Below are positions 20,013-23,156 of a DNA stretch of 64,000 nt, one piece after another. The notes beneath the pieces are model-generated. The model did no database searches. It saw only the letters and a program-made list of their open reading frames with translations, and was not told where the DNA came from. Origin of the DNA: Gluconobacter cadivus. GTDB lineage: Bacteria > Pseudomonadota > Alphaproteobacteria > Acetobacterales > Acetobacteraceae. Each line of letters opens with the position of its first letter. The first letter of the stretch is position 1. The stretch covers positions 434,001-498,000 of the forward strand of contig NZ_JABCQI010000001.1 in assembly GCF_015244745.1 (NCBI RefSeq), written 5' to 3'. The position numbers and the translations under genes are program-made.

Positions 20013-20435
20013 ATGCCCATCAAACTCGACCCCGCACTCCTCCCTGCTCTGGATATCCTTGGCATGGCCCAGTCCGGCGCCCTTCTTCGTGCCGAGCGGG
20101 AGACGCCATCAGATGGTATTCCCGCCTTCGTCACCCGAGCAGGCTGGGATGAACTCACAGCGACACATGCTGCAAACCACAATGCTCCCCACAGTGTGCT
20201 TCTTCCGGCGCTCGAAAAAGCCGTCGCCCGTATTCTAGCTCACGCAGCCCAAAACGCGTCGCAGACGGGCGAAATGACGCCTGTCACCACGCTGCAAAGC
20301 GATCTTTTTCCCAGCGATCCTGATCTGGTTCTGGCCTTCGTCCGTGACAGCACCCATCCCGTAGCCTGCGCCCTGATTGGCACAGCCACGCAGATCGAGG
20401 CAGCACTCCGTGGTCGGGACGCTGCTCAGGACTGA
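20013..20435 (+). CDS. Hypothetical protein
   Basis: A protein of about 140 residues with no signal peptide, membrane segment or recognised motif; it is mainly Ala/Leu-rich and probably helical. The start is not decided: the ATG at 20013 begins a normal-looking N-terminus, while one at 19977 would add 12 residues, and neither has a strong ribosome site. Its 3' end overlaps the convergent fliJ gene by 10 bases. Confidence 0.6.
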   Translation: MPIKLDPALLPALDILGMAQSGALLRAERETPSDGIPAFVTRAGWDELTATHAANHNAPHSVLLPALEKAVARILAHAAQNASQTGEMTPVTTLQSDLFPSDPDLVLAFVRDSTHPVACALIGTATQIEAALRGRDAAQD

Positions 20436-20851
20436 CTGAACTGGCGAATGGCCAGTTCATCCAGCGCATTCTGTTCTTTTTTGAGCTCCGCCTGCCGCTC
20501 TTCTTCCTGCCGCTCCTCCTTCAGAGTTTTGACGGCTTCCATGGCAGCTCTCGCAATAATCAGTGCCGACCGCACAGTTTCACGATCCAGCGCGGCTTCG
20601 CGGCAGCGTGCCTGCGCTTCGGCAACAGCCTGCCGCCCGGCAGGAAGCCAGCGGCTGAAGGCTTCCACAGCACCATCCCCCGCTGTCGGACTGGAGGCGA
20701 TCCGCTGCTCGCTCAGTATTTCTTCCTGAGCCGCCGACAGCTTTTCTTCCGCAGCCGTCTCACGCGCAACGGCCTCCGCAAAGCTTCTTTCAACCAGATC
20801 AAGCTCCTGCTCACGCAGGGTGATGAGAGTGTCGAGAGGTGAGTGTTCCAT
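20426..20851 (-). CDS. fliJ: FliJ-like flagellar export protein
   Basis: A 141-residue protein that is almost entirely charged alpha-helix and coiled coil, with Glu/Gln/Arg-rich heptads throughout. This pattern, together with its position directly after fliI, identifies it as FliJ, the coiled-coil stalk of the flagellar type III export ATPase; sequence conservation alone would not be enough. The ATG at 20851 lies 13 bases after the fliI stop, with AAAGG about 10 bases upstream. An earlier ATG at 20875 would overlap fliI by 11 bases. Confidence 0.75.
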   Translation of the reverse strand: MEHSPLDTLITLREQELDLVERSFAEAVARETAAEEKLSAAQEEILSEQRIASSPTAGDGAVEAFSRWLPAGRQAVAEAQARCREAALDRETVRSALIIARAAMEAVKTLKEERQEEERQAELKKEQNALDELAIRQFSQS

Positions 20852-20864
20852 CCTGAAGGATCCT

Positions 20865-22223
20865 TTACGCCGCATTTAAAGGAGTGGTTTGCGGAATCGT
20901 CTGCATAATCTGGGCCAGTTGTTCAAAAGCCTCCGCACGCGTCGACCGCTCGTTCCGCCCCTGAGACAGGAACTGGTTCAGCTTGGGCACCAACGTGATG
21001 GCCTCGTCAACCTCACGATCAGTGCCTGACTTGTAAGCACCAAGACGGATCATATCCGCCATACGCTGATAGGTCGCCATCGCTGCGCGCGCACGTTGAG
21101 TAAGGGCGTTTTCCTCAAGAGAATTGCACCCCGGAACCGCACGGGACAGGGAGCGCAGGACATCAATGGCGGGATAGCGTCCCTGTTCACCAATCTTGCG
21201 ATCCAGAATGATATGACCATCCAGAATACCGCGCACCGCGTCCGCAACCGGCTCGTTCTGGTCATCTCCCTCCACCAGCACAGTAAAGAGAGCCGTAATC
21301 ATCCCCTGATCGGGATATCCCGGACCTGCGCGTTCCAGAAGGCGGGGCAGTTCGGCAAACACGGAAGGCGGGTAACCACGCGTCGCAGGGGGCTCCCCTG
21401 CAGAAAGACCAATTTCACGCAGCGCCATGCAAAACCGCGTCACGCTATCCATCAAAAGCAGAACCGACTTACCCTGATCCCGGAAATATTCCGCAATCGC
21501 CATGGCAGACAGCGCTGCTTCACGACGCATCAGTGGGGGTGAATCCGATGTTGCAATCACCAGAACGCTCCGGGCCAACCCTTCGGGCCCAAGATCATCC
21601 TCAATAAATTCTCGAACTTCTCGCCCGCGCTCACCCACAAGCGAAATCACGGCGACATCACATTCCGCCCCCCGCGCCAGCATTGAGAGCAGGGTCGATT
21701 TCCCAACACCCGACCCGGCGAAAAGCCCAAGCCTCTGACCGCGACGACAGGTCGTGAACGCATCAAGAGCGCGCACTCCGAGATCAATCCGTTCTCCCAG
21801 GCGTGCCCGACTGGCCGCGTTAGGGGGTGGACACTGGATCGCCTGACTCTTGATCGCAGGGAACAAAGGTCCTTTTCCATCAATCGGCTGCCCCAGCGGA
21901 TCCACCACCCGCCCCAGCCAGCTTGAATTAACTCTCAGGCCACCGTCACGACGGCTGAGGGGAATTCTGGCCTCACAACCTGGGCCAATCCCATCCAGCG
22001 TACCAAACGACATTAGGCGCGCAACATCTCCCTGAAATCCCACAACCTCAGATTGTATAATCCGCCCGTCACGCGCCTTAACCGCGACTCGATCCCCAAT
22101 CGTGATGAATCCATCGAGTCCGATCACGGTCATGCAAAGACCCACAACGTCTTTCACGCTTCCTTCAACCCAGTCGCAGGTGAAGTTCGTGAGCATTTCA
22201 AGCAGCTTGGCGTAATCGCTCAT
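20865..22223 (-). CDS. fliI: Flagellum-specific ATPase FliI
   Basis: A 452-residue F1-beta-like ATPase that energises flagellar type III export. It has Walker A in LGLFAGSGVGKSTLLSML, a Walker B region ending in LLLMDSVTRFCMALREIGL, and the PPSVFAELPRLLERAG segment typical of FliI/YscN ATPases. It is oriented away from the CtrA-type gene, with a 189-base shared upstream region carrying a CtrA box 63-77 bases before the fliI start. Control by CtrA is therefore likely, as for flagellar genes in Caulobacter. Confidence 0.95.
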   Translation of the reverse strand: MSDYAKLLEMLTNFTCDWVEGSVKDVVGLCMTVIGLDGFITIGDRVAVKARDGRIIQSEVVGFQGDVARLMSFGTLDGIGPGCEARIPLSRRDGGLRVNSSWLGRVVDPLGQPIDGKGPLFPAIKSQAIQCPPPNAASRARLGERIDLGVRALDAFTTCRRGQRLGLFAGSGVGKSTLLSMLARGAECDVAVISLVGERGREVREFIEDDLGPEGLARSVLVIATSDSPPLMRREAALSAMAIAEYFRDQGKSVLLLMDSVTRFCMALREIGLSAGEPPATRGYPPSVFAELPRLLERAGPGYPDQGMITALFTVLVEGDDQNEPVADAVRGILDGHIILDRKIGEQGRYPAIDVLRSLSRAVPGCNSLEENALTQRARAAMATYQRMADMIRLGAYKSGTDREVDEAITLVPKLNQFLSQGRNERSTRAEAFEQLAQIMQTIPQTTPLNAA

Positions 22224-22412
22224 AAAGGCAGTTTTCGACCGTTTCCTGCGGATTATTCCGACTTCCCGACCCTACAACCCTATCGTTAAGAGGAGCTTAA
22301 TGTTCCCCTTTAACGAGAATAATAATGACAATTTTACGATTTTTGATCCATGTCTATCGACAGACACAACCTTGGGTAGTAACCATTGATTCACCAAGCC
22401 GGGAGTTGAAAC
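22224..22412. promoter_or_regulatory. Divergent fliI / ctrA promoter region
   Basis: These 189 bases separate the divergent fliI and ctrA start codons. The middle, roughly 22281-22345, is unusually AT-rich for this genome and contains three TTAA tetramers. It must serve both genes. Exact -10 and -35 hexamers cannot be called with confidence. Confidence 0.7.
22286..22300. promoter_or_regulatory. CtrA box, TTAA-N7-TTAA
   Basis: TTAA at 22286-22289 and TTAA at 22297-22300 are separated by exactly 7 bases, the consensus CtrA binding geometry. A further TTAAC occurs at 22310-22314. The site lies about 113 bases upstream of ctrA and 63 upstream of fliI, so autoregulation and control of fliI-fliJ are both plausible. 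Confidence 0.75.
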
Positions 22413-23156
22413 ATGCGTATCCTTCTTGTCGATAGCGATCAGTCCGCCGCCGCCACATTGTCCCAGACACTGCGTAACGCGACCTTTACCGTCGATCATA
22501 CGCCCTCTGGCGAAGAGGCCATCGAGATGCTGCGCCACTACGATTATGACGTGGTCGTGCTCGAACTGATGCTGAACGATCTGGAAGGATACGAAGTCAT
22601 CCGGCGCGTCCGGGCAGCACGGATCACGACGCCGATCCTCGTCCTTTCGGCGCTGCTTCGCTCCCAGGCCAAGATCCGGGCTTTTTCCATGGGTGCTGAC
22701 GATTACATGACGAAGCCTTATGACGCAGGCGAACTGGTCGCACGTCTTCAGGCCGTCATGCGACGTTCCCGGGGCTTTGCCGAGCCGAAACTGCGCGTCG
22801 GCAATCTGGAGCTGGATCTGAACGGCAAGAATGTTACCGTCGATGGCGCAGCCTTGCATCTGACAGGCAAGGAATACGCCATTCTGGAGCTTCTGGTGAT
22901 CCGCAAAGGGTCCGTCCTGACCAAGGACGCGTTCCTCAATCACCTTTATGGCGGCATTGATGAACCGGAAATGAAGATCATTGACGTCTTCATCTGCAAG
23001 CTACGCCGGAAACTACAGAATGTCGGTGCAGGCAACCTGATCGCCACCGTCTGGGGACGTGGCTACATCCTGCGGGAAGACGATGTCTCAGAGACGGCTG
23101 CGCTCGCCAGCCTGCCTCCAGCAGTCACCGCACCCATCGTCGAAGCAGTCGTCTGA
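22413..23156 (+). CDS. ctrA: CtrA-type response regulator with Glu at the phosphoacceptor site
   Basis: A 247-residue OmpR-family response regulator that, by remembered comparison, matches alphaproteobacterial CtrA along its length. The winged-helix half is nearly identical to Caulobacter CtrA in HLTGKEY, FLNHLYGG, DEPEMKIIDVFICKLRRKL and VWGRGYILR. The receiver differs at key places: the phosphoacceptor Asp51 is Glu (codon GAA at 22563-22565, in VVVLELMLND), and residue 8 of the acidic pair is Ser (DSD instead of EDD). The conserved Ser in VLS and the Lys in MTKPY remain. The Asp51-to-Glu change equals the classic phosphomimetic allele, so constitutive activity is likely but inferred. GGGAG lies 8 bases before the ATG. 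Confidence 0.93.
   Translation: MRILLVDSDQSAAATLSQTLRNATFTVDHTPSGEEAIEMLRHYDYDVVVLELMLNDLEGYEVIRRVRAARITTPILVLSALLRSQAKIRAFSMGADDYMTKPYDAGELVARLQAVMRRSRGFAEPKLRVGNLELDLNGKNVTVDGAALHLTGKEYAILELLVIRKGSVLTKDAFLNHLYGGIDEPEMKIIDVFICKLRRKLQNVGAGNLIATVWGRGYILREDDVSETAALASLPPAVTAPIVEAVV

Follow-up and report, generated by a model that had tools for sequence, protein, structure and literature searches.

A natural CtrA orthologue with glutamate at the phosphorylation site in Gluconobacter cadivus and many other acetic acid bacteria

CtrA and related regulators that may act without phosphate

Among alphaproteobacterial regulators, CtrA is the textbook example of gating by phosphorylation. The Caulobacter D51E allele is named phosphomimetic and was substituted for ctrA (PMC12186491), and D51E combined with a blocked tail is described as stable and active, with G1 arrest under stress (PMC5189948), which agrees with its description as an active laboratory allele in an earlier, sequence-only reading of the present locus. 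The CtrA of Gluconobacter cadivus belongs to the same protein family and carries the identical substitution, but the Caulobacter allele is laboratory-made, whereas the Gluconobacter Glu51 is natural, common to several genera and accompanied by Ser8; unlike in Caulobacter, ChpT was undetected and no CckA-like kinase of the relatives' kind was found. Rhodobacter capsulatus CtrA is likewise said to act without phosphate, the unphosphorylated protein being reported to activate gafA, although it retains Asp51 (the D51A and D51E forms were constructed) and the paper discusses CckA as regulating it (PMC6363796). The atypical OmpR-type regulators HP1043 (2hqr), CosR and RitR share the OmpR fold and were all three among the structure matches of the protein studied here, but they are no CtrA, which is a known relay target that here seems to have lost its input. 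Structure entry 2hqr is titled a phosphorylation-independent regulator and is presumably HP1043, and we likewise assume that CosR and RitR function as atypical regulators.

Brilli et al. 2010 found relay members missing to varying degrees in a Rhodospirillales cluster including Granulibacter, for which they report no ctrA, and considered that another phosphotransferase might replace ChpT, such enzymes being hard to annotate; the terms D51, aspartate and phosphorylation site are absent from its main text (PMC2877005). It has also been reported that chpT, cckA and divL are present in only 27-36% of Rhodospirillales genomes (PMC8116508). Judged by title and abstract opening, none of the papers listed in searches of the open literature treats Asp51 loss in the CtrA of acetic acid bacteria, subscription papers being mostly outside this scope; aspartate-less regulators are already known, and the CtrA case is seemingly unreported, which is no proof of novelty. 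If true, an old, natural and group-wide Asp51Glu would constitute a ready-made evolutionary experiment on CtrA's need for phosphate, show what replaces the phosphate and whether a laboratory mimic allele can fix in nature, and bear on the puzzle of the missing relay members and the ChpT stand-in (PMC2877005).

The ctrA locus and its receiver domain

The window, that is, the whole stretch of 64,000 nucleotides analyzed, contains the following features.

20426..20875, minus strand: fliJ-like gene downstream of fliI (open reading frame, named from position and length)
20865..22223, minus strand: fliI, flagellar ATPase, divergent from ctrA (open reading frame, named by eye)
22286..22300, no strand: a perfect CtrA box (TTAA-N7-TTAA) in the fliI-ctrA gap, starting 127 bp upstream of the ctrA start
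22413..23156, plus strand: ctrA coding sequence, 247 aa (translation, family and domain matches)
22413..22772, plus strand: receiver domain, residues 1-120, with degenerate phosphorylation site but kept fold and dimer face (PF00072, dN/dS, AlphaFold, structure match)
22434..22436, plus strand: codon 8, AGC, Ser replacing a metal-binding Asp (translation, alignment)
22563..22565, plus strand: codon 51, GAA, Glu replacing the phosphoacceptor Asp (translation, alignment)
22647..22649, plus strand: codon 79, TCG, Ser, switch residue, kept (alignment with RstA Thr79, PMC4117788)
22713..22715, plus strand: codon 101, AAG, Lys, active-site lysine, mostly kept (clade alignment)
22785..23078, plus strand: DNA-binding winged helix, about residues 125-222 (PF00486, identity to two family CtrAs)
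23079..23153, plus strand: C-terminal tail, variable and of low confidence, with Val-Val and not Ala-Ala at its end (alignment, AlphaFold)

The best of 92 NCBIfam families for the window protein was the CtrA model NF045991, whose name ends in Rhodob, at 324.8 bits, below the cut-off of 350, and the equivalog threshold was thus missed; Pfam PF00072 (receiver) and PF00486 (winged helix) both scored above cut-off. The DNA-binding domain is 73-76% identical to those of the Asp51 family CtrAs L215 and L180, compared with 34-38% for three paralogues in the same genome. The nearest named locus, that of Gluconobacter kondonii, is 94% identical, and fliI adjoins ctrA here as well as in five Asp51 relatives (L028, L029, L030, L032, L034). 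Judged by orthology (tree, identity and synteny), the window protein is a CtrA despite the missed cut-off, and the orthology proposed by the sequence-only reading is borne out, as best family, DNA-binding domain identity and fliI synteny agree. CtrA is single-copy in the G. cadivus genome (G000): no second, canonical Asp51 copy was present among 18 matches, the next three of which are 36-37% identical.

Both substitutions singled out by the sequence-only reading, Glu51 and Ser8, were confirmed from their codons, residues 7-9 reading Asp-Ser-Asp, and the protein is therefore an orthologue but no phosphorylatable CtrA. In RstA, the counterparts are Thr79 and Tyr98, which act as switch residues, Lys101, and Asp97 and Arg111, which form the dimer salt bridge (PMC4117788). 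Across the clade of acetic acid bacteria and near relatives described below (56 rows), residue 79 is Ser in 52 and Thr in 3 of the 55 rows read, and residue 101 is Lys in 38, Arg in 13 and another residue in 5 of 56. Asp96, Asp97 and Pro102 are invariant in this clade, Ser79 changes once, and Tyr98, Lys87, Glu107 and Arg111 change at most twice each. The receiver dN/dS was 0.01-0.08 against nine relatives (eight Gluconobacter, one Neokomagataea), four of the dS values exceeding 1, and the receiver is therefore not mere dead weight; with Glu51, this gives the combination expected of an atypical regulator, an absent acceptor Asp in a protein under selection. The AlphaFold model built from a 46-row alignment placed the receiver block at pLDDT 87-98, and that from the single sequence gave pLDDT 39. 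When the receiver alone was compared with known structures, the top-ranked match was 4qpj_C (1.0 A over 118 columns, 44% identity), from an entry holding a phosphotransferase with a receiver domain, which we take to be ChpT with CtrA, but ChpT is undetected in the G. cadivus genome. The acceptor Asp is kept in 25 of the 27 receiver domains of this genome (one of the 27 scoring below cut-off), the two without it being CtrA (Glu) and a receiver within a kinase, L132 (G000:C5:202445-202774), which has Cys at that position.

The Ala-Ala ending is the degradation signal of Caulobacter CtrA. It was observed in 15 of 28 ChpT-bearing Asp51 rows with a readable end, in 3 of 26 acidic-51 rows and none of three other rows of the 56-row clade, in none of seven Arg/Ser51 rows, in 4 of 11 other family rows and in 7 of 30 CtrAs from other families. 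Gluconobacter tails also differ among themselves, with Val-Val here and Ala-Val in 5 of 10 others. As to CpdR, the six single-receiver proteins scanned reached at most 61 bits among the scores shown, against a cut-off of 180. The suggestion that CtrA is regulated by proteolysis instead of phosphorylation was not sustained by the rarity of Ala-Ala in the clade and these CpdR scores: the tail data do not favour regulated proteolysis of the Caulobacter type, yet many normal CtrAs lack Ala-Ala.

Distribution and history of residues 51 and 8, and the relay partners

In a survey of 80 named-relative loci, three of which (L046, L047, L048) had matches too short for reading, Glu51 was present in all 10 other Gluconobacter loci, encoded by GAA in nine and GAG in one. 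Close relatives thus share Glu51, not the Asp that would have pointed to a sequencing error, and such an error is ruled out because these 10 loci concur. Glu51 was also found in Neokomagataea, Tanticharoenia, Brytella, Acetobacter musti, Acidomonas, three Asaia, strains ESL0709 and B3987, Bombella mellum and B. favorum, so that the finding is wider than first claimed: many acetic acid bacteria share Glu51, and it occurs in genomes in which the relay is undetected. Ala51 occurs in Bombella sp. ESL0385, B. saccharophila and Parasaccharibacter apium, and Asp51 together with Asp8 in seven loci that branch deeply (L027-L032, L034; among them a record titled Acidobacteria). A CtrA-like gene on a more distant alphaproteobacterial MAG contig (L045, 6001-6675) encodes Ser51 and Ser8 and is 47% identical to the window protein.

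A class-wide sample of 240 genomes gave a CtrA match in 164, and 90 CtrA genes were read from 89 of these, all from other families and comprising the 30 best-scoring plus 60 down the list, with the weakest matches outside this set. Asp51 and Asp8 occurred together in 89 of the 90; the single exception, L442 (G294:C49:16419-17093), has Glu51, Gln8 and Arg101 and comes from a 1.2 Mb genome of another alphaproteobacterial family. Asn51 was found in none of the CtrAs read, one (the best) copy being read from genomes with several CtrA-like matches, except in G059 and G340.

A quick tree of 197 CtrAs, calculated with the active-site columns removed, gave a clade of 56 rows (SH-aLRT 96) that unites the acetic acid bacteria with near relatives and comprises 44 sampled genomes and 12 named loci, at least two of the loci being identical to sampled rows. 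Residue 51 in this clade is Glu in 40 rows (GAA 27, GAG 13), Asp in 10, Ala in 4, His in 1 and unread in 1; among its sampled genomes the counts are Glu 31, Asp 10 and one each of Ala, His and unread. Residue 8 is Ser in 24, Asn in 9, Gly in 6, Pro in 6, Asp in 4, Glu in 3, Thr in 2, Tyr in 1 and unread in 1. An acidic residue hence occupies position 51 in 50 of the 55 rows that were read (41 of 43 among sampled genomes) while residue 8 varies; the metal site is therefore free to vary, which holds far less for residue 51. Site 51 underwent 9 substitutions within the clade, equal to the receiver median of 9, and site 8 underwent 13; those at site 51 are mostly Glu-Asp exchanges, only three leaving or regaining acidity, and the excess of such exchanges over mutation is weak (P of about 0.07 on the careful tree and 0.02 on the quick tree).

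The careful tree, which left out seven long or partial rows (L296, L301, L304, L312, L320, L322 and L323, with residue 51 being Ala, His, Asp, unread, Glu, Glu and Glu, respectively), showed five changes at site 51, their direction being read from the Asp51 outgroup since the tree method itself is directionless. On the simplest course from that outgroup, Glu replaced Asp where a 45-row clade begins (support 95/80), then reverted to Asp three times (G060 with G184; G046 with G126; G030) and changed once to Ala (Bombella/Parasaccharibacter). The question of where D51E arose among Acetobacteraceae is thus answered most simply by a single change, probably at the base of the acetic acid bacteria. 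Residue 8 is non-Asp in the G060/G184 and G046/G126 reversions, and G030 keeps Glu7-Asp8 with Lys9. Acetobacter musti and G009 retain the metal pair alongside Glu51, whereas G056, G071, G132 and G181 still have Asp51 but no longer the Asp at residue 8, and the two losses therefore occurred in either order. Inside the clade, on a long branch, lies G013 (L304), whose site is intact (Glu-Asp-Asp, Asp51) and whose genome gave no ChpT match. Glu51 with altered residue 8 was also seen in G081/G146 and G148, outside the clade on the quick tree with poorly supported placement. The same tree put an Arg/Ser51 group outside the clade on a very long branch. These CtrA-like proteins (L313-L319) have Arg or Ser at 51 and lost lysine 101, and in the four examined identity is 29-33% in the receiver and 51-56% in the DNA-binding domain, making theirs the most decayed receivers.

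Relay partners were searched in 200 family genomes, 179 of which have CtrA. The ChpT model PF10090 matched 126 of the 200 and detected the Caulobacter control, and it gave no match in the G. cadivus genome nor in three others labelled Gluconobacter. Dividing the matches by hand at E 1e-5, residue 51 is Asp in 101 genomes with a clear match (Glu 1, unread 1), Asp in 9 with a weaker one (Glu 2, Ala 1) and Asp in 20 without a match (Glu 32, Arg 6, Ala, His, Gly and Ser 1 each, unread 2). The 35 Glu51 genomes thus include one clear match (G133) and two weak ones (G009, G192), the latter being the only matches among the 44 sampled genomes of the 56-row clade. Asp8 and Asp51 occur together in 98 of 102 with ChpT and in 9 of 63 rows without; the nine include the second CtrA copy of the ChpT-bearing G059 and hence represent eight genomes. 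Outside the clade, eight genomes without a clear or weak ChpT match have both residues and four with ChpT miss one, and in an independent-pairs test the ChpT-Asp51 link was not significant with four well-supported pairs, reflecting few independent losses. Asp51 in genomes without a match amounts to 20 of 62 once the second G059 copy is set aside, and Fisher statistics on such counts take no account of relatedness. L191 (G133:C107:817-1512) has Glu51, an intact metal pair and a clear ChpT match, in a genome with two CtrA-like matches. In some ChpT-bearing relatives (L181, L215), about 6 kb separate ctrA from chpT, and the genes in between, named by eye, are chemotaxis-like.

For the kinase we used L333, which scored highest in the family against the Caulobacter CckA model, taken from a ChpT-bearing genome and orthologous by inference. 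At E 1e-90, kinases of this type were found in 85 of 200 family genomes, in 75 of 130 with Asp51 and in none of 35 with Glu51, and the G. cadivus genome had none at this threshold; they are also missing from 33 ChpT-bearing Asp51 genomes, and absence is therefore no proof. The best CckA core matches in the G. cadivus genome, L325 and L326, reached 296 and 288 bits against a cut-off of 1000, which none of the 200 family genomes passes; this NCBIfam scan covered nine proteins of a genome with 22 HATPase and 27 receiver places. CckA-type cores thus exist in this genome, but with ChpT and the relatives' CckA-like kinase both undetected the CckA-ChpT relay looks lost. SciP, considered as a local regulator, was rejected, as PF06627 had no match in the G. 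cadivus genome; this family is nearly absent from the sample, with matches in four of 200 genomes, one of them over the cut-off.

Flagellar context and competing explanations

The box between fliI and ctrA would be met by chance with a probability of about 0.001 given 17 perfect boxes genome-wide. In G. kondonii this position also carries a box, with a different spacer, and fliI lies in the same place (91% identical); all 11 aligned Gluconobacter share the first half-site, and in nine the second is one base off. Genome-wide, the 17 perfect boxes compare with 29 for the reversed control pattern, and since there is no enrichment the regulon is unreadable from boxes. Two of the 15 box loci inspected (of 17) precede flagellar genes, as named by eye; a second perfect box lies before flgB (L341, also named by eye). 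A GANTC methylation site (22388) was discarded as a conserved promoter control, as it is not conserved across the Gluconobacter alignment. Among 64 genomes searched, FliI was present at 63-100% identity in 32 (24 Glu51, 5 Asp51 and 3 Ala51, the last being the Bombella and Parasaccharibacter genomes). It was absent from nine Arg, Ser, His or remaining Ala51 genomes (three show only a 42-48% match), from 15 acidic-51 genomes, from one with residue 51 unread and from seven without a CtrA match. The Arg/Ser51 group combines the most decayed receivers with absence of flagellar FliI, and complete decay therefore accompanies FliI loss there. On the best reading, the Glu51 CtrA would still be linked to flagellar genes through the box between fliI and ctrA.

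Overall, we consider it probable that the window protein is a true acetic-acid-bacterial CtrA turned into a phosphorylation-independent, active-like regulator through Glu51 at the phosphorylation site and relay loss. Asp51 would have changed to Glu near the root of this bacterial group, in a lineage where ChpT and the relatives' CckA-like kinase are undetected, and the metal-binding pair would have decayed too; with Lys101, Ser79 and Tyr98 retained, Glu51 most likely keeps the receiver in a form that is active-like and competent to dimerize, and CtrA may then bind its boxes without phosphate, its output following its amount. This reading starts from the sequence state and its distribution, the undetected ChpT and CckA-like kinase, purifying selection, the kept dimer and switch residues and the box beside fliI, from which we infer the active-like state, dimer formation and control by amount. 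The CtrA switch seems evolutionarily hard-wired because Glu replaces the acceptor Asp and the phosphate-passing protein was not found; against a hard-wired mimic stand Ala51 alongside FliI, the three reversions to Asp, G133 with both ChpT and Glu51, and the intact site of G013. The suggestion that this CtrA is always active-like keeps its footing in orthology, Glu51, Ser8 and the undetected relay, and is weakened by Ala51 with FliI and by Glu having turned to Asp three times; the constitutively active reading would be the likeliest, not the sole one. Its group-wide extension, in which Glu51 was selected as a built-in phosphate mimic, the relay discarded and output set by amount, with convergent cases elsewhere, is a serious but tentative proposal. 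Glu51 is also found outside the 56-row clade, and this speaks against simple decay, in which the relay is gone and with it selection on the phosphorylation site, Glu is a conservative, near-neutral substitute at 51, and CtrA functions unphosphorylated with no mimicry. Such decay is rather unlikely: it would account for Ala51 beside flagellar FliI in Bombella and Parasaccharibacter, which warns that acidity at 51 is not strictly needed, for His, Gly, Arg and Ser at 51 elsewhere (including Ser51 in L045), for the back-changes to Asp51 and the free loss of residue 8, and the report on unphosphorylated R. capsulatus CtrA and gafA offers a precedent (PMC6363796), but it fits poorly with an acidic residue 51 where residue 8 is not kept, with GAA and GAG both in use, with the lack of Asn51 in any CtrA read though Asp to Asn is one transition, and with the low receiver dN/dS.

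It is very improbable that CtrA is still phosphorylated, by another kinase, by small phosphodonors or on another residue, or that a diverged ChpT was missed by the model. The difficulty of annotating phosphotransferases (PMC2877005), the weak PF10090 matches in the Glu51 genomes G009 and G192 and the CckA-type cores L325 and L326 would allow for it, but acceptor and metal site are both altered, PF10090 detects ChpT widely in the family and nowhere in this genome, and where residue 51 is Glu there is no Asp51 acceptor for any phosphotransferase, a hidden ChpT included. The probability of an assembly or sequencing error, or of a paralogue taken for CtrA, is negligible, as no support for either was found, and Glu51 in every other Gluconobacter locus and in seven further named genera, the fliI synteny and a genome without a better CtrA all contradict them.

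Outside the window, the G. cadivus genome encodes a second FliI-like ATPase (G000:C7:228754-229944, 47% identical to FliI), which we assume may belong to a type III secretion system. Of the 64 genomes searched, eight others have similar FliI-like matches, at 42-50% identity.
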